From positions 1 through 32,995 of the forward strand of contig VXPF01000087.1 of assembly GCA_009839725.1 (NCBI GenBank): a stretch of 32,995 nt of DNA, in the 5' to 3' direction. The stretch comes from Dehalococcoidia bacterium. Its GTDB lineage: Bacteria; Chloroflexota; Dehalococcoidia; Tepidiformales; Tepidiformaceae. Shown in pieces: positions 1-12,245 of the stretch; position 1 is the first letter of the stretch; each line of letters begins with the position of its first letter. The notes beneath the pieces are model-generated. The model was not told the origin of the DNA. It searched no databases and worked only from the letters and a program-made list of their open reading frames with translations. The position numbers were made by a program, and so were the translations under genes.

Positions 1-40
1 ACAACCCACCTCCCTCTACGTCTCGGGGGCTCGGATTTTT

Positions 41-397
41 TTATAATCCACACACGGGGGGGGTGATGGGCCGGGCGGGGCTCCCATCAAGGGACTGGCA
101 GTAGATGCGCTGGCTGTCGTGGCCGACGAACCAGGCGGCGCCGTGGGCGAGGGAGGAGTCGCCGCCGCCGTACCCGACTCCGGCGCGAACGGCGTGGTCG
201 CTGCTGATGTCGCGGATGGCGTTGCCGTCGCCACCGAAGCCGGCGGCGACCACCACACCCCGGTCGCCGCGCCCCTCGAACCAGCCGAGGGTGCGGCCGT
301 CGCTATCCCAGGAGGGACCCCGGAGGCGAAGGCCGCCAGCGAGGGCGGCGGGCGTGATGGGGCTCTCCCACAGTCCGTAGGGTCGGCGCTCGGGCAT
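41..397 (-). CDS. S9-family (prolyl oligopeptidase-like) peptidase, N-terminal fragment
   Basis: The 118-residue reading frame begins MPERRPYGLWESPIT and continues with a WFEGRGDRG stretch, a GYGGG turn and a C-terminal SPARPITPP. This matches the start of the beta-propeller domain in S9 acyl-peptide hydrolase-like enzymes, which are usually 600 or more residues with a C-terminal alpha/beta-hydrolase domain. That domain is absent. The frame runs into a C8 tract (positions 55-62 on the minus strand) and stops at 41-43 in an AT-rich stretch that no longer resembles the family. Either the gene is broken, or the first ~60 bases are a contig-edge artefact. ATG 397 was chosen; ATG 406 is an alternative. 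No catalytic residues are present, so no activity is claimed. Confidence 0.5.
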   Translation of the reverse strand: MPERRPYGLWESPITPAALAGGLRLRGPSWDSDGRTLGWFEGRGDRGVVVAAGFGGDGNAIRDISSDHAVRAGVGYGGGDSSLAHGAAWFVGHDSQRIYCQSLDGSPARPITPPVCGL

Positions 398-453
398 GCG
401 GGGCATTCTGCCCGATGGCGCGAGTCGCGGTAGCCCCGAGCGCGGAGCGGCGG

Positions 454-459
454 TAGGCT
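454..459 (+). promoter_or_regulatory. Putative -10 box (TAGGCT) for the Na+/Ca2+ exchanger transcript
   Basis: TAGGCT fits the TANNNT consensus and lies 11 nt before the ATG of a 20-codon ORF at 471. A transcript starting about 7 nt downstream would have a leader of only a few bases. No convincing -35 hexamer is visible. It lies in the 135-bp gap between the divergent S9 fragment and exchanger genes. Confidence 0.35.
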
Positions 460-470
460 CGCAAGCGCAC

Positions 471-533
471 ATGACGCACCCGATTCCTTCCCCGGGCGCG
501 CGCCTGCTCCGGACGCGGCGAGACGCTTCGTGA
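471..533 (+). CDS. Possible 20-residue leader peptide overlapping the exchanger start
   Basis: ATG 471 opens a 20-codon frame (MTHPIPSPGA, then an Arg-rich end RLLRTRRDAS) whose TGA at 531-533 shares its A with the exchanger ATG at 533 (TGATG). The frame sits just behind a TAGGCT box. This arrangement would couple exchanger translation to the short ORF, because no Shine-Dalgarno sequence precedes 533. There is no homology evidence. It may be fortuitous. Confidence 0.3.
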   Translation: MTHPIPSPGARLLRTRRDAS

Positions 534-1819
534 TGAGCGCGCGCTTCACCGGGCAGTGGGCGGCCATCGGACTCGCCGTACTGGCGTGCGTGCCGGGCAT
601 CGTGCTGCGCATCACCGAACCGCACCTCGACCCGCTGCTGGAGTCGGCGGTGTATGGGCTCGCCATTCTGGGGGCGGCATTCCTGCTGACCTGGGCCGCG
701 GAGACGGCGGAGGTGGACATCTCACAGGGGCTCGCGCTCGCGATCATCGCCTTCATCGCGGTGCTCCCCGAGTACGCCGTCGACGCGTTCCTGGCGTGGG
801 AGGCGGGCACGGACCCGGAGAAGGCGGCCGAGGGACTCGCCGTCGCCAACATGACGGGCGGGAACCGGCTGCTGATCGGTATCGGCTGGCCGGTGGTTTT
901 CCTGATCTTCTTCTACCGGAGGCGACTGAAGGAGCTGGTGGTGAGCCGCGCGCGGGCGCTGGAGTTAGCGTTTCTGGCGGTGGCGACGGTATACGTCATC
1001 CTCATACCGCTGCGGGGCACGCTCACGCTGGCGGACACGATCGTGCTCGTCACGATGTTCGTCATCTACCTGGTGATGACGAGCCGGGTGGAGTCCGAAG
1101 AGGTGGAACTAGTGGGGCCAGCACGAGCGATGGGGGCGCTGCCGGACGTGCGGCGACGGGTCGTGGTGGTGGTGACGCTGGTGTTCGCGGCGGCAGTGAT
1201 CATCGCCTCTGCGGAGCCGTTCGCGCACGGGCTAGTGGAGACGGGCAAGAAGGTGAACATCAGCGAGTTCGTGCTGATCCAGTGGATAGCGCCGTTGGCC
1301 TCGGAGTCGCCGGAGGTGCTGGTGGCGGCGCTACTGGCGTGGCGGGGCCGGGCGGCGGCGGGGATGGGCGCGCTGATCTCGTCGAAGGTGAACCAGTGGA
1401 CGCTGCTGATCGGCACGCTGCCGATCGCGTTCATGATCGGCTCGGGCGACTGGGGCATCCTGCAGGGGCTGCCCCTCGTTTCGCCCACGGAGGAGGTCAA
1501 CCTCTTCTTCTCGCGCCAGCAGGGCGAGATCTTCCTGACGGCCGCGCAGTCGGCGTTCGCGATCGCGGTCTTCGTGAACCTTCGCATGAGCCGCCCCGAG
1601 GCCTGGGCGCTCTTCATCCTGTTCGCAGCGCAGCTCCCGCTGACGGAGGACGTGCTGGGCGAGGGGGCGCAGATCGTGCGCTTCTGGTACTCGATCGGGT
1701 ACATCGCGCTCTGCACCGCCCTGCTGATCCGCAACCGGGCGGGCATCCCCGGCCTCGTCCGGGACGCACGGGACATGATGACGGGGAAGGCGGATTTCGT
1801 GGAGGAACAGGAACGCTAG
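533..1819 (+). CDS. Sodium/calcium exchanger family membrane protein (CaCA superfamily)
   Basis: The 428-residue polytopic protein has two inverted alpha-repeats typical of cation/Ca2+ antiporters. Repeat 1 carries LPEYAVDAF (Glu80) and NMTGGNRLLIG near residues 78-116. Repeat 2 carries APLASESPEVLVA and SSKVNQWTLLIG. The acidic and Asn/Ser residues in these repeats form the ion-binding site in the family. About ten hydrophobic segments place it in the cytoplasmic membrane, where members exchange Ca2+ for Na+ or H+. The exact ions here are inferred. ATG 533 was preferred because it overlaps the stop of a short upstream ORF; GTG 530 is immediately adjacent. The end is convergent with the coiled-coil gene, 10 bp apart. 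Confidence 0.85.
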   Translation: MSARFTGQWAAIGLAVLACVPGIVLRITEPHLDPLLESAVYGLAILGAAFLLTWAAETAEVDISQGLALAIIAFIAVLPEYAVDAFLAWEAGTDPEKAAEGLAVANMTGGNRLLIGIGWPVVFLIFFYRRRLKELVVSRARALELAFLAVATVYVILIPLRGTLTLADTIVLVTMFVIYLVMTSRVESEEVELVGPARAMGALPDVRRRVVVVVTLVFAAAVIIASAEPFAHGLVETGKKVNISEFVLIQWIAPLASESPEVLVAALLAWRGRAAAGMGALISSKVNQWTLLIGTLPIAFMIGSGDWGILQGLPLVSPTEEVNLFFSRQQGEIFLTAAQSAFAIAVFVNLRMSRPEAWALFILFAAQLPLTEDVLGEGAQIVRFWYSIGYIALCTALLIRNRAGIPGLVRDARDMMTGKADFVEEQER

Positions 1820-1829
1820 GGGCGGCAGG

Positions 1830-2294
1830 CTAGCCGACAAAGGCAACGGTGACGATTGCACCGATCGTGCCCACGAGAATCGCAGAGCTGAGCCCGATCG
1901 AGGCTGCCACCCACACCCGCATGTCCCCCCGGAGTTCGGCGGTCTCCTCGCGGGAGTTGGAACGAAGCGCTTCCATGTCCTCACGGGACTCGGACCGGAG
2001 AGCCTCCATGTCCTCACGAGAGGCGGTTCGGAGAGCCTTCATGTCCTCACGAGACTCAGCCCAGCGGGCGTTCATCTCCTCGCCAAGACGGCTGATGTCT
2101 TGCCGAATGGCAAACGTGTCATCTCGAGACTCGGCACGGTAAGTAGCCAAGTCCTCACGGGATTCAGCGCGGTGAGCGGCCATATCTTCGCGTGACTCAG
2201 CACGGTGGGCGGCCATGTCCTCACGGAACTCGAGGCGGAGCGCTTCAAGGTCGGCGCGCGTGGCAGGCTCGGAAGCAGCGGATGTGCTTGTCAC
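1830..2294 (-). CDS. Hendecad-repeat coiled-coil protein with C-terminal membrane anchor
   Basis: The 154-residue protein has no recognised family. It has a short Ser/Thr/Ala N-terminus, then about eight 11-residue units of the form REDMxAxRxES, interrupted once by a 14-residue unit (11+3). It ends with one hydrophobic segment of ~24 residues. Eleven-residue periodicity predicts a straight or slightly right-handed coiled coil, so this is probably a membrane-tethered oligomeric rod; topology is unknown. GTG 2294 was chosen over TTG 2300 because a TAGACT box ends 6 nt before it, leaving a leaderless message. Weak resemblance to DUF1640/CCDC90-type coiled coils is possible. The neighbouring cimA gives no functional clue. 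Confidence 0.65.
   Translation of the reverse strand: MTSTSAASEPATRADLEALRLEFREDMAAHRAESREDMAAHRAESREDLATYRAESRDDTFAIRQDISRLGEEMNARWAESREDMKALRTASREDMEALRSESREDMEALRSNSREETAELRGDMRVWVAASIGLSSAILVGTIGAIVTVAFVG
1920..2225 (-). repeat. Tandem 33-bp coding repeats (hendecads)
   Basis: Within the coiled-coil gene, roughly 33-bp units encode REDM(A/K/E)AxRxES-type blocks. Two adjacent units (REDMAAHRAES) encode identical peptides, and REDMEALRS occurs twice. The array is broken by one 42-bp unit near the middle. Near-identity between adjacent units suggests recent expansion by slippage or unequal recombination. Confidence 0.75.
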
Positions 2295-2300
2295 ATCCAA

Positions 2301-2306
2301 AGTCTA
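2301..2306 (-). promoter_or_regulatory. Putative -10 box (TAGACT) of a leaderless promoter for the coiled-coil gene
   Basis: On the minus strand TAGACT is followed by exactly 6 nt and then GTG 2294. That spacing puts the expected transcription start at or next to the start codon. The box lies in the short gap between the cimA stop and this gene, where composition is locally AT-rich. Confidence 0.5.
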
Positions 2307-2317
2307 ACACAAACAGA

Positions 2318-3910
<1,593 letters not shown>

Positions 3911-3953
3911 GGTGAGGAGAGCGCGGCGTAAGGGCGCGAGGGGTGGTCCAGCG

Positions 3954-3959
3954 ATGGTA
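3954..3959 (-). promoter_or_regulatory. Putative -10 box (TACCAT) for cimA
   Basis: Minus-strand TACCAT lies 43 nt before the cimA ATG. Unlike several neighbours, cimA would therefore have a leader of about 35-40 nt. No clear -35 or Shine-Dalgarno sequence is seen. Confidence 0.3.
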
Positions 3960-4058
3960 GCACGGGGTCCTGTTATGGCATGTGGCCGCCCTGCGGCGGA
4001 GGGGGCGCAGTGACACCACCCCCGCCGCCGCCCGCGGCTGTTCCCGCGGAGGCCCGGT

Positions 4059-4088
4059 GTCAAGGCCGCTGCGGGGTGCGGCCTTGAC
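4059..4088. terminator. Perfect 11-bp hairpin (stem GTCAAGGCCGC, 8-nt loop)
   Basis: Left arm 4059-4069 and right arm 4078-4088 are exact reverse complements around an 8-nt loop. It sits downstream of the small lipoprotein ORF and upstream of cimA on the minus strand. A T-tract is absent on either strand, so it is not a textbook intrinsic terminator. It could end the upstream transcript or act as a protein site. Confidence 0.4.
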
Positions 4089-4111
4089 GACGGTTCCGGG
4101 TCGCTCGATGG

Positions 4112-4142
4112 CCAGCCTAGCGATCGGAAGGGCGAATTACCC
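4112..4142. repeat. Direct repeat copy R1 (promoter-like element)
   Basis: R1 begins CCAGCCTAG and ends GAATTACCC. It aligns with R2 (4294-4324) at about 28 of 32 columns, with two substitutions and two single-base indels. On the minus strand it also contains TAGGCT, but no start codon follows at the right distance. It abuts the stop codon of the small lipoprotein ORF. Confidence 0.7.
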
Positions 4143-4288
4143 TAGCCCCCCGGTAGGGGGTGGGGGGACGGCGGCGGGGACGGGCTCGCCTCGTCCCCAC
4201 CGCCGCATGCGGCGAGTGCCGCGAGGAGGACTGCTGCGACCGCCACGAGAGGGGCACTCCTCGGACGGGTGCGCGTTCGTCGCCCCAT
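4142..4288 (-). CDS. Small lipoprotein (48 residues) or lipoprotein remnant
   Basis: The frame encodes MGRRTRTRPRS, a hydrophobic core LVAVAAVLLAALAAC with a lipobox (LAAC, Cys28), then a short Gly/Asp/Glu and Ser/Pro-rich tail ending at TAG. This is a textbook lipoprotein signal peptide with Arg-rich n-region. The mature part is only 21 residues, so it is either a genuine very small lipoprotein or the front of a truncated one; Pro/Ser-rich linkers often follow the lipid anchor in larger proteins. TAGGCT ends 7 nt before the ATG, matching the leaderless pattern elsewhere in the window, which supports expression. Copies of a ~32-bp element bracket it precisely. Confidence 0.5.
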   Translation of the reverse strand: MGRRTRTRPRSAPLVAVAAVLLAALAACGGGDEASPSPPPSPHPLPGG

Positions 4289-4293
4289 GTGGA

Positions 4294-4324
4294 CCAGCCT
4301 AGGGACCGAAGGGCCGAATTACCC
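4294..4324. repeat. Direct repeat copy R2, carrying the lipoprotein promoter
   Basis: R2 matches R1 across CCAGCCTAG, AAGGGC and GAATTACCC. On the minus strand it contains TAGGCT (4296-4301), 7 nt before the lipoprotein ATG 4288. It therefore probably is the promoter of that ORF. Confidence 0.7.
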
Positions 4325-4347
4325 CGTCCGTTTTGGGGAAATTCCGA

Positions 4348-4845
4348 TTACTTGTAGCGGCGGCCTCGCTGGGCCTTCGTGCGGTCGCCCCGGTACTCGT
4401 AGACGGGGACGCCGTAGCCGCAGGAGGTCTGGGTGCGCTCGACGGCGATCTCGATGACCTGGCGCTCGGGGGTGGGCGTCTCGGCAGCTCGCAGCTCCTC
4501 GGCGTGGGCGGCGAGGACGGACTCATCGAGCGGCTTCGCGCAGGCGCGGCCGTAGAGGCGGACGATGGCCGCGTCCTCGTCCAACGACGTGACCATGACC
4601 GTGACCGGGCCGCCGGCCATGCCGTGGCGGGCGGTCTCGTTGCCGCTGCCGGCGTAGTCGAAGTAGGCGAGCGTGTTGCGGTCGATGACGTGCAGGTCGG
4701 CGGCGCCCTTGGGGGAGAGGTTGACGGCGCCCTGGCCGTCGGGGCCCTCTTCGAGGGCGGGGTCGGCGCTCGCGACGAAGAAGACGTGCGCGCTGCGGAT
4801 CAGGTCGGCCTGCTCGTCGGTGATGTGGTCGAGCAGGACTGCCAT
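4348..4845 (-). CDS. Pyridoxamine 5'-phosphate oxidase-family flavin-binding protein
   Basis: The 165-residue protein is a split-barrel FMN/F420-fold member: an N-terminal helix (ITDEQADLI), a strand VFFVASADP, GQGAVNLSPKG, then NTLAYFDYAGSGNETARH, which is typical of the PPOX family group often annotated pyridoxamine oxidase-like. Members bind FMN or F420 as homodimers and reduce small molecules; true PdxH activity is not indicated, and the substrate is unknown. It lies 19 bp downstream of the VWA gene on the same strand, so the two are probably co-transcribed. The C-terminus is basic (RTKAQRGRRYK). Confidence 0.8.
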   Translation of the reverse strand: MAVLLDHITDEQADLIRSAHVFFVASADPALEEGPDGQGAVNLSPKGAADLHVIDRNTLAYFDYAGSGNETARHGMAGGPVTVMVTSLDEDAAIVRLYGRACAKPLDESVLAAHAEELRAAETPTPERQVIEIAVERTQTSCGYGVPVYEYRGDRTKAQRGRRYK

Positions 4846-4864
4846 GGCGACGACCGCCGCCCCG

Positions 4865-7093
4865 CTACCCGGCGATGCCCGTGAGGTGCTTGCGCTTCTG
4901 GGCGACGTAGTCGACGAGGATGTACTCGCCGAGCTTGTCGGGGGTGGTGTAGAAGACGCGGCCCTTGTTGATGCGCGCGACCTGGTTCACGAACTCCTTC
5001 AGGTAGTGATTCCTGTCGAGCATGAAGGTGTTGATCGTGATGTTCTTGCGAGTGCAGCGCTTCACGGCCTTGAGGGTCTCGCGGATGGTGATGGGGCTCG
5101 GGGGATAGGCGAAGTAGCTGCGGCCGCGCTCGAGGTGCGCGGTCGGTTCGCCGTCGGAGATCATGATGATCTGGCGGGTGCCCTGGGTGTGCTTCGCGAG
5201 CAGGCGCTCGGCGATCATGAGGGCGTGGTGCATGTTCGTTCCGAGGACGGACTCGTCCCAGCGCACGTAGGGGAGGTCCTCGGCCTTCAGCTCCCGGGCG
5301 TAGGCGCTGAAGCCGATGATGTAGAGGCTGTCGCGCTGGAACTGGGAGGAGATCAGGTTGTTGAGGGCGAGGGCAACCTTCTTGGCGGCCTGGAAGCTGC
5401 CGCGCAGGGCCATGGACCAGCTCAGGTCGAGCATGATGACGGTGGCGGTCTGGGTGACGAGCTCGCTGCGGGCGACCTCGAAGTCGTCGGGCTGGAGGTT
5501 GATGGGGGTGCCAACGCCCTCGCGGTGGAGCGAGTTCATGATGGTGCGCTTGATGTCGAGGTGGAAGGGGTCGCCAAACTCGTAGAGCTTGGTCTGGTCG
5601 GTGCGTTCGCCGCCGAAGCCGCTCTCGTGGACCTCGTGCTTGCCGAAGGAGTCGGCCTTGAGCTGGGCGTAGAGCTCGACGAGGGCGCGCTGGCCGATCT
5701 TGCGGGTGCCGCGCGGGGTCAGCTCCCAGCCTGAGCCCTTCTTCCGGATGTAACCCGCCTCCTCGAGGATTTCGAGGAACTTGCGCAGCTCGTCGAGGGT
5801 CTCGCGGGCTTCGGGTCCGAGCAGCTCCTCGAGCTGGTCGGCGTCGATGTCGTCGATCTCCCCGCCGTACTGGGTGCGCTCGAGCTGGCGCTCGACCTCG
5901 TCGATGGACTGCATGTGGCGCATGAGCTCCATGGCGGCATCGAGGTCGATCTGCTCCTCGCCGCGGAAGGGGTACTGGTTGCGCTGGTCGCGCATGGGGA
6001 AGAGGTACTCGAGGTTCTGCGCGAGCTCGTTGAGGCTCTGCTGGAGCTCAGGGTCACCGACCTTGTCGGCGAGGAGGTCCTGGAGCTGCTGGCGCATGTC
6101 GCCCGGGAGGCTCCCCAGGAGGCTCTGCATCTGGCCCATCTGCTGCTGCATCTGGGCGATGAGCTCGTCGAGGGACTGGGGCGGGTTGTCGCCGAAAAGG
6201 TCACCGTACTTCTGCATGAAGCTGTCGAAGTCCGGCTCGTTGCCGGCCATCTTGTCCTGCAGCATCTGGTTGAGGTCCTGGGTCATCTGCTTCATGCGTT
6301 CCATGTCCTCGGGGGACATGTTGGCGATCTGCTCGGAGAGATCCTTGAAGAAGGTGTTCATCATCGCCTGGCGCAGCGACTCGACGAGCTCGTTGAACTT
6401 GGCCTGGGCCTCGGGGTCCATGAACTCGTAGTCCTGGAGCCTGCGGACCTGCCCGGCGGTGTCGTCCGGGAGCTCGTCGAGGAACTCCTGCTTGCGGTTG
6501 GCGATGTTGCGGAGCATGTCGGCGAACTCGCTGGTGGGGACGCTCCCCTCGCCGTCCGAACCGCCCGACTGCGACCCCTGCTGGCCCTGTTGCCCCTGCT
6601 GGCCCTCGCCGGGCTGGCCCTGCTGCGACTCGCCCTGCTGGCCGCCCTCGTTTGAGGGCTGGCCCTGCTCGGCGCCCTGCTGCTCGCCTTCCCCGTCCTG
6701 TGCGCCATCGCCCTGCTCGGCGGGCTGCCCCTCCTGCCCTTCCTGGCCTTCGGGCGGGACGCCGGCGTCCTCGAGGCGCTGGTCGATGGTGTTGCGCTCC
6801 ATGTCGAGGATCTCGTCGAGCTGCTCGCGGAGCTGGTCGAAGATGGAGCCGAGGTCGAAGCGGTCGAGCTGCTGGCGGCGCTGCTGGCGCAGCTGCTGGA
6901 GGAGATCGCGGAGGCCCTGGGTGCGGTCGCCCATGGGGTTGCGCATGCCACGCTGGAGGAGGTTACGGAGGGCGTGCTGGAGGTCTCCGAAGTTCATGAG
7001 GTCGTCGGAGAGGTTGTCCAGGATCTGGTCGGGGTCGAGGTCCGCGACTTCCTGGGTGCCATCCCACATGGAGTAGCGGAAACGTGACGGCAT
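4865..7093 (-). CDS. VWA domain protein with Gln/Gly-rich linker
   Basis: The 742-residue protein is likely cytoplasmic, with no signal peptide. Residues 1-110 are helical and conserved-looking. Residues 115-184 form a Gln/Gly/Glu low-complexity linker. Residues 190-450 are largely helical and Met/Gln-rich. The C-terminal ~200 residues are a von Willebrand A domain with a complete MIDAS: Asp556-x-Ser558-x-Ser560, Thr619 and Asp647 (SDGEP). Such VWA proteins act as metal-dependent scaffolds, often with MoxR-type AAA ATPases; none lies in this window. ATG 7093 is preceded by a GAGGAGG Shine-Dalgarno. The PPOX gene follows after 19 bp. The specific function is unknown. Confidence 0.85.
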   Translation of the reverse strand: MPSRFRYSMWDGTQEVADLDPDQILDNLSDDLMNFGDLQHALRNLLQRGMRNPMGDRTQGLRDLLQQLRQQRRQQLDRFDLGSIFDQLREQLDEILDMERNTIDQRLEDAGVPPEGQEGQEGQPAEQGDGAQDGEGEQQGAEQGQPSNEGGQQGESQQGQPGEGQQGQQGQQGSQSGGSDGEGSVPTSEFADMLRNIANRKQEFLDELPDDTAGQVRRLQDYEFMDPEAQAKFNELVESLRQAMMNTFFKDLSEQIANMSPEDMERMKQMTQDLNQMLQDKMAGNEPDFDSFMQKYGDLFGDNPPQSLDELIAQMQQQMGQMQSLLGSLPGDMRQQLQDLLADKVGDPELQQSLNELAQNLEYLFPMRDQRNQYPFRGEEQIDLDAAMELMRHMQSIDEVERQLERTQYGGEIDDIDADQLEELLGPEARETLDELRKFLEILEEAGYIRKKGSGWELTPRGTRKIGQRALVELYAQLKADSFGKHEVHESGFGGERTDQTKLYEFGDPFHLDIKRTIMNSLHREGVGTPINLQPDDFEVARSELVTQTATVIMLDLSWSMALRGSFQAAKKVALALNNLISSQFQRDSLYIIGFSAYARELKAEDLPYVRWDESVLGTNMHHALMIAERLLAKHTQGTRQIIMISDGEPTAHLERGRSYFAYPPSPITIRETLKAVKRCTRKNITINTFMLDRNHYLKEFVNQVARINKGRVFYTTPDKLGEYILVDYVAQKRKHLTGIAG
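6542..6751 (-). repeat. Low-complexity coding tract (Gln/Gly/Glu-rich)
   Basis: About 70 codons of the VWA gene encode GQQG, EGQ and QQGQ-like motifs without regular period. The protein stretch should be disordered and separates the N-terminal helical region from the rest. Confidence 0.7.
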
Positions 7094-7122
7094 GGCCCCT
7101 CCTCGACGGCGCGGCGGACTCG

Positions 7123-7153
7123 TTCGGGGCCTTACCGTAACCTACGCCCCGAA
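7123..7153. promoter_or_regulatory. 8-bp inverted repeat spanning the VWA promoter
   Basis: TTCGGGGC (7123-7130) and GCCCCGAA (7146-7153) are perfect reverse complements separated by 15 bp. The spacer holds minus-strand TAGGTT (7139-7144), the best -10 candidate for the VWA operon, so a protein bound to both arms would cover the promoter. It lies in the divergent gap between VWA and the AIM24-like gene. Confidence 0.35.
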
Positions 7154-7231
7154 GGCCCACAATCGGGGGGAAGGCATTCACCGCCCGACCTGCGACGCGA
7201 ACCACCTTCGACACCCCAACAGGAGTACCCA

Positions 7232-7912
7232 ATGCGCCACGAAGTGAAGTACCAGCCGTCCTACGCCCTCGCGCTGGTCACCCTCGACCCGGGCGAGTCG
7301 ATCCAGGCGGAAGCGGGGGCGATGGTGAGCATGTCGTCCACCATCCAGATGGAGACGAGCGCGCGCGGGGGGGTGCTCTCGGGCCTGCGGCGATCGGTGC
7401 TGGGCGGGGAGAGCTTCTTCATCAACACCTTCCGAGCGGAGGAGACGGGGGAGGTCACGCTGGCGCCGGCTTTGCCGGGTGACATCGTGGCGCTGGAGCT
7501 GACCGGGGGATCGACGCTGCTGGTGCAGTCGGGCTCATTCCTGGCGGCAACGGAGGGCGTGGAGGTCGACACGAAGTGGGGCGGAGGGAAGTCGTTCTTC
7601 TCCAGCGAGGGTCTGTTCCTGCTGCGCTGCACGGGCCAGGGCACGATCTGGCTCTCGAGCTACGGGGCGATCCACCCGATCGACCTCGGCGTGGGCGAGC
7701 CGTACACCGTCGACACCGGGCACATGGTCGCGTTCGACGACTCGGTGCAGTACGACGTGGGCCGCTCGGGCGGCTGGAAGTCGACGCTGTTCAGCGGCGA
7801 AGGGCTGGTCGTGAAGCTGACGGGGCCGGGGCGCTTCTACATGCAGACGCGCTCGGAAGACAGCTTCCTGAGCTGGCTCCTCCCGAAGATCCCGAAGCAG
7901 GGCGGCAACTAG
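7232..7912 (+). CDS. AIM24 / TIGR00266-family protein
   Basis: This 226-residue all-beta protein belongs to the AIM24 (TIGR00266) family. Characteristic features are the N-terminal YALALVTLDPGESIQAEAGAMVSM, SGLRRSVLGGESFFINTF, GTIWLSSYGAIHPIDL and VDTGHMVAFDDSVQYDV. The family is widespread in bacteria and as mitochondrial AIM24, adopts a TNF-like beta fold, and has no established enzyme activity. ATG 7232 has AGGAG at 7221-7225, 6 nt away. It is divergent from the VWA operon and is followed 41 bp later by an acyl-CoA dehydrogenase with its own promoter-like box. The gene is full length. Confidence 0.9.
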   Translation: MRHEVKYQPSYALALVTLDPGESIQAEAGAMVSMSSTIQMETSARGGVLSGLRRSVLGGESFFINTFRAEETGEVTLAPALPGDIVALELTGGSTLLVQSGSFLAATEGVEVDTKWGGGKSFFSSEGLFLLRCTGQGTIWLSSYGAIHPIDLGVGEPYTVDTGHMVAFDDSVQYDVGRSGGWKSTLFSGEGLVVKLTGPGRFYMQTRSEDSFLSWLLPKIPKQGGN

Positions 7913-7939
7913 GGCGCTCTGGCCCTCGCGTCGCGGGCG

Positions 7940-7945
7940 TAGACT
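7940..7945 (+). promoter_or_regulatory. Putative leaderless -10 box (TAGACT) for acyl-CoA dehydrogenase
   Basis: TAGACT is followed by 8 nt and then ATG 7954. No Shine-Dalgarno sequence precedes the ATG, which fits transcription beginning at or next to the start codon. Confidence 0.45.
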
Positions 7946-7953
7946 GCCGCGCG

Positions 7954-9120
7954 ATGGAGTTCCGGTTCTCGGAGGAAGCGCTCGCGTTCGAGCGCGAGGT
8001 GGATGACTTCCTCGCGGTCGAGTGGAGCCCTGAGGTGCGGCGCGCGCTGGATGCGTCGCCCGATCGGTACGCGGGCGAGCGGGAGTTCCGGCGGAAGCTG
8101 GCGGAGAAGGGCTGGCTGACGATGTCGTGGCCGCGGGAGTACGGCGGCCAGGAGCGGAGCTACGAGGAGCAGTACCTCTTCCAGGAGGCGCTCAACTACG
8201 TGAGCGCGCCGGGCGCGACGGTGGGTGTGCAGCAGGTGGGCCCGACGCTGATGACGTTCGGCACGGACGAGCAGAAGGCTCAGTTTCTGCCCCGGATCGC
8301 GAAGGGCGAGATCGACTTCGCGCTGGGGTACACGGAGCCGGACGCGGGCACGGACCTGGCTTCGCTTCAGCTTCGGGCCGTGCGGGACGGCGACGACTAC
8401 GTGCTCAACGGGATCAAGCGGTTCACGAGCGCGGCCCACCGGGCGGAGTACGTGTGGCTGGCGGCGCGGACGGACCCGTCGGCGCCGAAGCACCGGGGCA
8501 TCTCGATGTTCCTGGTGGACCTGCAGACGCCGGGCATCACGGTGAAGCCGATCTGGACGATGTCGGGCATCCGCACGAACGAGGTGTACTGGGAGGACGT
8601 GCGCGTGCCAGCGGACGCGCTCGTAGGGGAGGAGAACCGGGGGTGGTACTACGCCGCGCACGCGCTCGACTTCGAGCGGGTCTCGATCTTCACGGTGTCG
8701 GGGGTGCGGGCGGTGTTCGACGCGCTCATGCGGTGGGCCCGGGAGAAGGGACCGGACGGGAAGCGTCCGATCGACGACGGGCACGTTGCGCGGACGCTAG
8801 CGGACTACAAGGTGCAGATCGAGGTGCTGCAGATGCTGGCCTACCGCAACCTGGGGATGATCAAACGGGGGGAGCACCCGAACCACGAGGCGAGCGAGGT
8901 CAAGATCTTCAGCACGGAGCTGATGCAGCGTCTCCTCCACACCGGTACGAAGCTGCTGGGTCCGTACGGACAGCTCACGCCCGAGTCGGAGCACGCGCCG
9001 CTGGGTGGGCGCATCGAGCAGGGGTACCGGGCGGCGGTGATGCCGACGTTCGGGGCGGGTTCGAACGAGGTGATGCGGAACATCATCGCGACGCGGGGCT
9101 TCGGCCTGCCGCGGGGGTAG
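7954..9120 (+). CDS. Acyl-CoA dehydrogenase (FAD-dependent)
   Basis: The 388-residue enzyme has the ACAD fold: N-terminal helical domain, middle beta-domain with GYTEPDAGTDLASL and KRFTSAAHRAEYVWLAART, and a C-terminal helical domain ending GAGSNEVMRNIIATRGFGLPR. Members introduce a 2,3-double bond into acyl-CoAs and pass electrons to ETF. The classical catalytic Glu position (YEGTS in medium-chain enzymes) is Gly367 here, while Glu241 in LDFERV occupies the alternative base position used by isovaleryl- and long-chain acyl-CoA dehydrogenases. A branched or bulky substrate is possible. The C-terminal motif resembles FadE-type actinobacterial enzymes, some of which work as heteromers; no partner subunit is nearby. 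Confidence 0.9.
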   Translation: MEFRFSEEALAFEREVDDFLAVEWSPEVRRALDASPDRYAGEREFRRKLAEKGWLTMSWPREYGGQERSYEEQYLFQEALNYVSAPGATVGVQQVGPTLMTFGTDEQKAQFLPRIAKGEIDFALGYTEPDAGTDLASLQLRAVRDGDDYVLNGIKRFTSAAHRAEYVWLAARTDPSAPKHRGISMFLVDLQTPGITVKPIWTMSGIRTNEVYWEDVRVPADALVGEENRGWYYAAHALDFERVSIFTVSGVRAVFDALMRWAREKGPDGKRPIDDGHVARTLADYKVQIEVLQMLAYRNLGMIKRGEHPNHEASEVKIFSTELMQRLLHTGTKLLGPYGQLTPESEHAPLGGRIEQGYRAAVMPTFGAGSNEVMRNIIATRGFGLPRG

Positions 9121-9161
9121 CGAGGAGAGCGGCGCGCTGTCGCGTGGCTGAGTGAGGGACC

Positions 9162-9500
9162 GTGGCGCCGAACTTCTATGAGCGGGTGTGGGCGTTGGTG
9201 GGGGAGGTGCCGCGCGGGCGGGTGGTGACGTACGGGCAGGTGGCGGTGGTGCTAGGGGCGCCGTCGGCGGCGCGGGCGGTGGGGTATGCGTTGCGGGCGC
9301 TGCCGCACGACACGGATACGCCCTGGTGGCGAGTGATCAATGCGAAGGGCGGGATCAGCCTGCGGGGGCGGGGATACGGGGCCGACCTGCAGCGGGAGCT
9401 GCTGGAGGGCGAGGGGGTGGTGTTCGACGAGGCGGATACGGTCGACCTGCGGGTCTACCGCTGGTGGCCTGAGGACGAGGGCGACCTAGCCCGGCCTTGA
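9162..9500 (+). CDS. Alkyltransferase-like (ATL) DNA repair protein
   Basis: This 112-residue protein matches the C-terminal DNA-binding domain of O6-methylguanine-DNA methyltransferase: VPRGRVVTYGQVA (Tyr24), a helix-turn-helix with Arg finger Arg38 in ARAVGYAL, and PWWRVINAKGGIS. The reactive Cys of the PCHR motif is Trp55, so it cannot accept alkyl groups. In characterised ATLs, the protein binds and flips O6-alkylguanine and hands it to nucleotide excision repair. The GTG start is supported by upstream GAGGGA. It follows the acyl-CoA dehydrogenase by 41 bp and overlaps the tail of the convergent PPOX gene by 15 bp. Confidence 0.88.
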   Translation: MAPNFYERVWALVGEVPRGRVVTYGQVAVVLGAPSAARAVGYALRALPHDTDTPWWRVINAKGGISLRGRGYGADLQRELLEGEGVVFDEADTVDLRVYRWWPEDEGDLARP

Positions 9501-9914
9501 GTAGTCCCAGGAGATGACCTTCGTCGGCGTGACCTTGATGTAAGCGGCGCCGGGTGGGGCCTGCGTGGGGAGGGCATGCTCGGGAGCGCCCCGGCTGCGG
9601 GCGGCCTCGCGGGTCAGCTCCAGCATCTCGTCGGGGGTGTTGATGACGGTGGCGTCGCCCTGGATGAGGATGCCCTTGATGTCCTGCATGGTGCTGCCGC
9701 TCTCCAGCGAGAGGCTGACCTTCGGGTTGCGCTGGGCGTTCAGCACCTTCTGGGTGTGGTCGCGACAGCCGATGTAGACGTCGTTGTCGACGCGGAAGTA
9801 GCCGATGGGCACGCTGTGGGGGTAGCCGTCGCGGCCGACGGACGTGAAGGTGATCCAGCCGGGACGGCTGTCGAGGAACTCATTGACTTCGTCCGGGGTG
9901 AGTTGGGCGGGCAT
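9486..9914 (-). CDS. PPOX-class (F420/FMN split-barrel) oxidoreductase family protein
   Basis: The 142-residue protein starts with LTPDEVNEFLDSRPGWITFTSVGRDG and continues YPHSVPIGYFRVDNDVYIGC and KVLNAQRNPKVSLSLESG. This is the usual layout of small PPOX-family proteins (TIGR03618-like) that bind FMN or F420 as dimers. The cofactor and substrate cannot be decided from sequence. ATG 9914 has AAGGAGG upstream and a TATCCT box (9935-9940), giving a short leader; a longer in-frame upstream extension is non-homologous. It is divergent from pdxT, and its 3' end overlaps the ATL gene tail to tail. Confidence 0.82.
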   Translation of the reverse strand: MPAQLTPDEVNEFLDSRPGWITFTSVGRDGYPHSVPIGYFRVDNDVYIGCRDHTQKVLNAQRNPKVSLSLESGSTMQDIKGILIQGDATVINTPDEMLELTREAARSRGAPEHALPTQAPPGAAYIKVTPTKVISWDYSRPG

Positions 9915-9934
9915 GGCGCCTCCTTGCGTGCGAC

Positions 9935-9982
9935 AGGATAGCGGCTCGGGGGCAGGGCGCGACCAGGCGCGGCTGCTACAAT
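9935..9982. promoter_or_regulatory. Divergent promoter region between PPOX and pdxT
   Basis: Minus-strand TATCCT (9935-9940) sits about 20 nt before the PPOX ATG. Plus-strand TACAAT (9977-9982), the best -10 match in the window, points toward pdxT, giving it a leader of roughly 45 nt. -35 elements are not obvious for either. Confidence 0.4.
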
Positions 9983-10033
9983 CGCAGGGCGCATGGGGCC
10001 TGGACGCGAACGATCTGGCGGGACGCACACGAC

Positions 10034-10633
10034 GTGACCACGGGCATTCTCGCCCTGCAGGGCGACTTCCGGGAGCATTCGGAGATGCTTGCGAGCATCG
10101 GGCAGGCATCGGTCGAGGTGCGGCGTCCCGAGCAGCTCGATGCGCTCGACTCCCTCATCATCCCGGGCGGCGAGAGCACGACGATCGCGCGGCTCATCCT
10201 GCGGTACGGCTTCACCGAGCCGCTGCAGGCGTTCTGCGCGAGCGGCCGGCCGCTGTGGGGCACGTGCGCGGGGGCGATCCTCCTTGCCAAACGGGTCGAC
10301 GAGCTCGACCGGCCTGGGATCGAGACGATGGACATGACGGTGGCGCGCAACGCCTTCGGGCGGCAGGTGGACAGCTTCGAGGCGAGCCTGGAGATGAAGG
10401 GCCTGGAGGGAGGGCCGTTCCGGGCGATCTTCATCCGGGCGCCGATCATCGAGTCGGTGGGGCCGGGCGTGGAGGTGCTGGGGCGGATCGAGGACGGGGC
10501 AATCGTGGCGGCGCGGCAGGGCAACCTGCTGGCGACGGCCTTCCACCCGGAGTTGGGGGGCGACAAGCGCCTGCACCAGTACTTCCTCACGATCGGGGCG
10601 GCGGAGCGACCGAGGGCGGGAGCCGGGGCGTGA
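10034..10633 (+). CDS. pdxT: Pyridoxal 5'-phosphate synthase glutaminase subunit PdxT
   Basis: This 199-residue class-I glutamine amidotransferase hydrolyses glutamine and channels ammonia to PdxS, which makes pyridoxal 5'-phosphate from ribose 5-phosphate and glyceraldehyde 3-phosphate. The N-terminal [12 protein letters not shown], the PGGESTT loop, the nucleophile Cys78 in [10 protein letters not shown], and His171/Glu173 in AFHPEL form the expected triad. The start is GTG. The PdxS subunit is not in the window, although the two are often adjacent, so it must be encoded elsewhere. The R3H ATPase follows 40 bp later. Confidence 0.95.
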
Positions 10634-10660
10634 AGTACGGACAAGATGGCGCTGCGGGGG

Positions 10661-10666
10661 TAGCGT
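10661..10666 (+). promoter_or_regulatory. Putative leaderless -10 box (TAGCGT) for the R3H ATPase
   Basis: TAGCGT is followed by 7 nt and ATG 10674. This argues for ATG 10674 over GTG 10668 and for an internal promoter within the pdxT-tmk run. Confidence 0.35.
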
Positions 10667-10673
10667 AGTGGCG

Positions 10674-12245
10674 ATGACCGAGGAAAACGGGACCGCCCCC
10701 GAGCGGATCGTGACGGACGATCTCGATGCGCTCATCGAGACGTTGCCGTCACGGCTCACGGAGAAGCTGGAGGCGGAAGACCACCGCAGCGAGCTGCTGG
10801 AGGTGGTGCTGGACCTGGGGCGGCTGCCGGAGGCGCGCTACCCGAACCGCGAAATCGTGCTCAGCCACCGGGAGGTGACGGAGGAGGACCTCGACTACGT
10901 CATCTCGCGGGTGGGGCTCTTCGGGGACGACAACCGCGCCGGCATCGAGCGGACGCTGCACCGCATCTCGGCCATCCGCAACCGGCGGGGAGAGGTGGTA
11001 GGGCTGACCTGCCGCATCGGACGGGCGGTGTACGGGACGATCCGGATCATCGAGGACCTGGTGATGAGCGGGAAGAGCATCCTGCTGCTGGGGCGGCCGG
11101 GCGTGGGCAAGACGACGATGCTGCGGGAGGTCGCGCGCGTGCTCGCGGACGAGGCGAACAAGCGGGTCGTGATCGTCGATACGTCGAACGAAATCGGGGG
11201 CGACGGGGACATTCCCCACCCGGCGATCGGGGGCGCGCGGCGCATGCAGGTGTCGACGCCGGCGCTGCAGCACGGGGTGATGATCGAGGCGGTGGAGAAC
11301 CACATGCCGGAAGTCATCGTGATCGACGAGATCGGCACGGAGCTGGAGGCGGGGGCGGCGCGCACGATCGCGGAGCGGGGCGTTCAGCTCGTGGGCACGG
11401 CGCACGGCAACACGCTCGAGAACCTGATGGCCAACCCCACACTGTGCGACCTCATAGGAGGCATCCAGTCGGTGACGCTGAGCGACGAGGAGGCGAGGCG
11501 GCGGGGCACGCAGAAGTCGATCCTGGAGCGGATGGCGCCGCCCACGTTCGACGCCGTGATCGAGATCCAGGGATGGCGGCGCGTGGCGCTGCACGAAGAC
11601 GTGGGGGCGACGGTCGACGCCAAGCTGCGGGGCTTCCAGGCGCCACCAGAGGTCCGCGAGCTGACGGACGGGGGCACGATTGCAACGGTCGCGCAGGAAG
11701 AGGTGGAGGCGCCGGCATCGGGGACGCGGGCGCAGTCAGCAGGGGCGAACGGGGCGTCGGCACAGGAGCAGGAGACCCGGCTCTTCCCGTTCGGGCTCTC
11801 GCGGGGCCGGCTCGTGCAGGCGATCCAGGAGACGGGCGTGCCCATCCAGATCGTCGATGACCTGCGGCAGGCGGACGCGCTGATCACCCTGCGGCACTCG
11901 TACCGGAAGAAGCCGGCGCCGGTGCGGGAGGCGGAGGAGCGCTCGCTGCCGATCTACGTGATCAAGAGCAACACGCTGTTCCAGATGGAGCAGGTGCTGC
12001 TCCAGTTCCGGGGTCAGCGGGCGCGGCGTGATCCGGTTGCGGAGGCCTACCGCGAGACCGAGGAGGCGATCGCGCAGGTGCTGACGGACGGGCGTCCGCT
12101 GGAGCTGGCGCCGGCGAACAGCTACATCCGGCGGGTGCAGCACGAGCTGGCGGGGCGCTTCAACCTGGACAGCGAGAGCCACGGGAATGAGCCAGAGCGG
12201 CGCGTGCGCATCCTGCCGGAGCCCCCGCGGTCGGGCGGCCGGTGA
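10674..12245 (+). CDS. R3H-domain AAA ATPase (Ycf45 / SpoIIIAA-like)
   Basis: The 523-residue protein has three parts. The N-terminal ~110 residues include [18 protein letters not shown] and resemble SpoIIIAA. An ATPase core follows, with Walker A (GRPGVGKTT), the [19 protein letters not shown] loop, Walker B (VIVIDEIGT) and AHGNTLENL. The C-terminal ~65 residues form an R3H single-stranded nucleic acid-binding domain ([30 protein letters not shown]). A variable Ala/Gln-rich linker lies near residues 345-365. Homologues occur in cyanobacteria, chloroplasts and many Gram-positive-like bacteria; their role is unclear, and nucleic-acid-linked ATPase activity is inferred. Its TGA overlaps the tmk GTG (GTGA), suggesting translational coupling. 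Confidence 0.88.

Follow-up and report, generated by a model that had tools for sequence, protein, structure and literature searches.

Transcription activators of the ToxR/CadC type have a cytoplasmic N-terminal DNA-binding domain, one transmembrane (TM) helix, and an extracytoplasmic sensor, and the DNA-binding domain of ToxR-like receptors is an OmpR-type winged helix-turn-helix (HTH) (PMC5430869). The regulators considered here resemble them in combining, in their predicted topology, an N-terminal DNA-binding domain, a single TM helix, and an extracytoplasmic sensor. They differ in the domain itself, which is of the LuxR/GerE type, in a large lineage-specific expansion, and in their association with mostly leaderless promoters of exported-protein genes. 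Because the DNA-binding domain is GerE and not OmpR-type, they are not ToxR-like members. With the LuxR/NarL/FixJ (GerE-type) regulators they share the GerE HTH (PF00196), which here, unlike there, stands at the N-terminus, tethered to the membrane and joined to a beta-propeller or to RCC1 repeats. A further difference, from the LuxR quorum-sensing regulators, is that a Pfam scan finds no N-terminal autoinducer-binding domain. The regulators belong to the broad LuxR/GerE superfamily and have an unusual architecture.

In the Bacteroidetes, membrane LuxR proteins with periplasmic Reg_prop/Y_Y_Y propellers carry a C-terminal HTH. There, as here, a propeller outside the cytoplasm is linked across the membrane to a LuxR HTH, which in the regulators described below is N-terminal instead. 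The leaderless promoters of high-GC bacteria place the -10 box 6-7 nt before the ATG or GTG and have no Shine-Dalgarno sequence. Most promoters of the present set have the same geometry, with a specific 17-bp operator replacing the -35 region. Open-access literature searches returned no description of such regulators or operators in Chloroflexota.

A small lipoprotein gene between two promoter elements

The window, that is, the whole stretch of 32,995 nucleotides that was analysed, belongs to a 2.83-Mb draft genome of a Dehalococcoidia bacterium. The features discussed here are collected in Table 1.

Table 1. Features of the lipoprotein-cimA region, numbered from the first letter of the window
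Feature	Position	Strand	Remarks
Lipoprotein ORF, 48 codons	4142-4288	minus	ATG 4288-4286, TAG 4144-4142
R2 element	4294-4324	minus	repeat finder, 31 nt
R2 -10 box, TAGGCT	4296-4301	minus	7 nt ahead of ATG; leaderless promoter geometry
R2 operator core, class A, AACGGACGGGGTAATTC	4316-4332	minus	shared with regulator A and exported-protein genes across the genus
R1 element	4112-4142	minus	repeat finder, 31 nt
R1 -10 box, TAGGCT	4114-4119	minus	read from the sequence
R1 operator core, class B, GGGGGCTAGGGTAATTC	4134-4150	minus	overlaps ORF stop codon
Decayed second lipoprotein ORF copy	3985-4111	minus	alignment to orthologues; start ATG changed to ATC, frame broken
Perfect inverted repeat, TCAAGGCCGC-N8-GCGGCCTTGA	4060-4087	minus	inside decayed copy; 10-11 bp arms
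Probable -10 of cimA itself, TACCAT	3954-3959	minus	GTGCTACCATCGC-type block upstream of relatives' cimA, conserved in genus
cimA-like gene (citramalate/2-isopropylmalate synthase family)	2318-3910	minus	HMGL-like and LeuA_dimer; orthologues in relatives

The locus was originally singled out by a sequence-only reading as a 48-residue lipoprotein ORF with a LAAC lipobox and a 21-residue mature part, and all of this is confirmed at the base level (product MGRRTRTRPRSAPLVAVAAVLLAALAACGGGDEASPSPPPSPHPLPGG, 48 aa, 21 residues counted from the Cys). The same reading described two copies of an element flanking the ORF, R1 abutting its stop codon and R2 ending 5 bp from its ATG; the repeat finder agrees, with 84% identity between the copies across 31 nt. 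Both TAGGCT boxes also stand as described, the one in R2 (4301-4296) at its 7-nt distance from the ATG and the one in R1 with no start codon behind it, since the expected position is occupied by ATC (4109-4107). The spacing between the R2 -10 box and the ATG is equal in relatives and in other promoters of the set. The operator cores reach beyond the repeats, to 4332 upstream in R2 and to 4150 in R1, and these upstream extensions belong to two different classes. The next gene downstream of R1 is cimA.

When the cimA upstream regions were cut out of related genomes and compared, the promoter and short ORF were found in single copy between a PNPOx-fold gene and cimA in 7 of 9 genomes of the genus, the window genome included. 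The order in these seven is PNPOx-like gene, AAACGGACGGGGTAATTCG-type element, TAnnnT, 7 nt, lipoprotein ATG, cimA block (GTGCTACCAT), and cimA; the lipoprotein promoter/ORF arrangement is absent upstream of cimA in the other two (G008 and G004). Relatives lacking both the ORF and the repeats had been named as the observation that would speak against the sequence-only reading. The short ORF and R2 are in fact conserved, whereas R1 is private to one genome.

The pooled pN/pS is 0.58 in the frame of the ORF and 1.19 and 1.89 in the two alternative frames, and the ORF is, on this comparison of sequences, under mild purifying selection as a protein. It consists only of a short signal peptide, a lipobox, and a Pro-rich sequence with a variable C-terminus. 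The LAAC motif follows a hydrophobic segment, as in bacterial lipoproteins, and the lipobox is kept in the 7 genomes. A Pfam scan of the small lipoprotein gave no match. An assignment to LptM was rejected (NCBIfam score 16.8 bits, under the 27.7 cut-off), as was membership of the NCBIfam invert_tail family, whose score also lies below its cut-off. A sub-threshold NCBIfam match of 4142-4288 to a lipo-invert C-terminal anchoring domain reaches 25.8 bits against a cut-off of 37.

The cimA leader holds a different short ORF in most genomes of the family outside the genus (L017-L030). That ORF is conserved, ends in ...VI-x-x-P-R-Q-S-R-G-x-x-I, sits over a CCCCGCGGCAATCCCGCGGGG hairpin, and is missing in the genus of the window; together with the hairpin it is a probable attenuator or leader peptide.

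Tethered LuxR regulators and their proposed operator classes

Copies of the element beyond the window, for which the sequence-only reading had proposed a search, are present at 6-18 in each of seven genus genomes. The strict pattern, ACGGACGGGGTAATTCG-N13-TAnnnT, occurs 6-10 times per genome and a slightly looser form 7-18 times, while a reversed control pattern occurs 0 times in the same seven genomes. The contrast of 6-18 sites with none thus indicates that the element is not due to chance. The site lies at a fixed distance ahead of a -10 box and precedes genes for lipoproteins or secreted proteins and genes for membrane-tethered LuxR-HTH proteins. These comparisons identify the element as a predicted genus-wide regulatory site common to genes for exported proteins and for membrane-bound LuxR regulators.

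Genes behind class A sites encode lipoproteins and Sec-exported proteins (RCC1, LRR, VWA-type, LysM). Export signals are present in every one of the 11 class A targets examined in the window genome, 8 of which have a lipobox; of the 25 window ORFs used as background, 5 have such a signal (p=7e-6), and this background set is small, with some of its ORFs in the wrong frame. Most targets start 6-7 nt past the -10 box, and a few have a leader (e.g. L038, L043, L055). Class B sites precede the class B regulator gene itself and otherwise mostly genes for lipoproteins or membrane proteins. In six relatives the LuxR-TM gene itself is preceded by a class A site, and the 29 family genomes outside the genus contain only 4 class A sites, every one of them directly upstream of a LuxR-TM homolog. 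G004 and G008 have no class A sites, and both are without a full class A regulator. In the window genome the class A regulator (L165, G000:C81) is a fragment that lacks its N-terminus where the contig ends and has a TAA in frame close to that edge; the N-terminal loss is probably an assembly gap. Elsewhere, a truncated LuxR regulator ORF of 67 aa (L098, G013:C22) is still preceded by a perfect class A-type site.

The regulators consist of a GerE domain (HTH at 14-68), a predicted TM helix (near 97-125), a Pro/Thr linker, and then a beta-propeller with an SH3-like end, which is replaced by RCC1 repeats in some paralogs. The GerE HTH (PF00196) scores above the gathering threshold in 7 of 7 regulators (E 2e-15 to 1e-11), and the PDB matches of the DNA-binding domain are to the corresponding domains of VraR, NarL, and ComA. 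No receiver, autoinducer-binding, or OmpR-type domain was found in the Pfam scan of the regulators. A structure model has low confidence as a whole (mean pLDDT 49); its middle part matches PDB beta-propellers. From this layout we infer an N-terminal cytoplasmic HTH, a single TM helix, and an extracytoplasmic propeller. Paralogs are numerous, with 8-17 matches in each of eight genus genomes and 2 in G008.

Regulator genes themselves largely carry the site. Among 40 regulator promoters with a recognisable -10, 37 have a core resembling (C)GGGTrGGGwAAwTC, with its G[T/A]AA starting 21-22 nt ahead of the -10, and 3 have a different site; eight further regulator matches without a standard -10 were left out, and most of these show a similar core. 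In L137, L141, and L150 (helix VGTVKFH or similar), the usual core is replaced, for example by the inverted-repeat-like CTGCGGAGCGCTGCTCCACG. Three classes pair a recognition helix with a core: SPYTVKYHVSN with AACGGACGGGGTAATTC (class A, as in R2), S[LI]ATVKFHIRN with GGGGGCTrGGGwAATTC (class B, as in R1), and SPDAVKYHVSN with CGGGTAGGGAAAATC (class C).

Across 24 non-redundant regulator-promoter pairs, the distance between recognition helices correlates with the distance between cores (r=0.60, p=1e-4), and the whole-HTH distance does so more weakly (0.32, p=0.03). The recognition helix shows no correlation with the spacer (r=-0.01) or with the upstream flank (r=0.05), and within the genus there is a weak spacer effect (0.14, p=0.046). 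The helix-operator correlation hinges on register: it is about 0 when cores are aligned ungapped from the -10, 0.25 when the register is partly mis-set, and 0.60 when it is corrected. Since the regulators and their promoters are paired in cis, part of it may reflect shared descent.

A rigid spacing of 21-22 nt to the -10, a position at -35, and a weak similarity of the regulators to Sigma70 region 4 would also be expected if the core served an alternative (ECF-type) sigma factor as its -35 element and the LuxR-TM proteins played no role. This explanation is improbable, because paralogs of a single genome have different core variants, which vary with the LuxR recognition helix, class C cores are nearly confined to the position ahead of their own regulator gene, and the distribution of the sites follows that of the LuxR-TM genes. 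The idea that a mobile promoter cassette, one option of the sequence-only reading, or a repeat element gave rise to R1 and R2 draws on the several copies per genome and fares far worse still. It is contradicted by similarity that stops at the core and the -10, with differing flanks, and by promoter-proximal positions at a fixed distance from the -10 of unrelated genes.

Origin and fate of R1

Among the 9 genomes of the genus, the second promoter element is present in this one only. Behind it lies the decayed copy of the lipoprotein ORF. When the stretch from R1 to the cimA promoter was aligned to orthologues, the summed score was 453, versus 271 +/- 28 for shuffles, and none of 5000 shuffles did as well as the decayed copy, nor did any of 1620 further segments of the window. 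The part of R1 that runs from the core to beyond the -10 is nearest to promoters of the lipoprotein locus (G002 18.5, R2 17.5, G005 16.5), and among 76 further promoters of this type the highest score is 14.0; R1 is therefore a paralogous copy of the lipoprotein promoter. As reconstructed from these alignments, the R2-lipoprotein unit was duplicated in this genome, and the downstream copy lost its ORF and kept a promoter, R1. The suggestion of a duplicated promoter with a lost second lipoprotein cistron is thus largely right, given the decayed ORF copy found behind R1. The R1 core matches the class B site with zero mismatches, and the same 17-mer precedes the L130 regulator gene in a relative; the upstream half of R1 now fits the site of another regulator paralog.

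Whether such a promoter still serves a gene bears on two readings of R1. That it is a functionless, dying remnant of the tandem duplication has about even odds: the ORF behind it is not intact, its start codon is lost, and R1 is unique to this genome, yet the 17-bp core and the -10 are intact whereas the ORF copy has many indels. The same contrast between a perfect class B core with an intact -10 and a ruined ORF is what favours a retained and repurposed promoter, one that would place cimA, the adjacent gene, under a class B LuxR-TM regulator through a structured leader of ~200 nt made from the decayed ORF. Folding of the predicted leader RNA is stronger than that of its shuffled versions (z -2.3), and the inverted repeat lies within this strongly folded RNA. 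Even so, this second reading is doubtful, as cimA has its own conserved promoter block, R1 is limited to one genome, the duplication junction may have produced the class B upstream half by coincidence, and the other class A and B targets inspected are, almost without exception, genes for exported proteins, membrane proteins, or regulators. As a REP/MITE-like repeat the hairpin was rejected, with a single occurrence in the genome, and an Rfam search of positions 1-12000 found no known RNA element near R1 or cimA.

Proposed mechanism and its meaning

The reading preferred here, with a probability of roughly 0.7, is that autoregulated, one-component, membrane-tethered LuxR activators bind at the -35 position of largely leaderless promoters of exported-protein genes. 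An extracytoplasmic signal would act on the propeller of the tethered regulator, and the LuxR domain would bind its own core where the -35 contact of a sigma factor would otherwise be. The bound regulator could then recruit RNA polymerase to TAgggT-like -10 boxes, with transcripts beginning at or beside the start codon, and would raise its own level along with that of its lipoproteins and secreted proteins. R2 would thereby combine a binding site with a -10 box, and the promoter so formed, probably a leaderless one, would express a very small surface lipoprotein. The sequences themselves show the sites with their spacing, targets, and distribution, the covariation of recognition helix and operator, and the duplication followed by decay. 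From these we infer that the regulator binds, that it activates rather than represses, that transcription is leaderless, and that a signal is sensed.

The genus has many regulator paralogs, most of them with their own site variant. A broader version of the proposal, for which the odds are slightly in favour, is that most paralogs of this membrane-spanning LuxR-type sensor family read their own 17-bp code word at -35 and regulate themselves together with surface proteins of their own, R2 and R1 being the adjacent words of two paralogs.

Regulation in uncultured Dehalococcoidia is hardly known. The regulators and sites described here amount to a testable regulatory code, in which regulators lie beside cognate operators, operator variants covary with the recognition helix, and regulons of exported proteins are predicted. 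They also provide a natural set for asking how LuxR-type HTH domains choose DNA, and R1 offers a case of a regulatory site that may outlive the gene it served.
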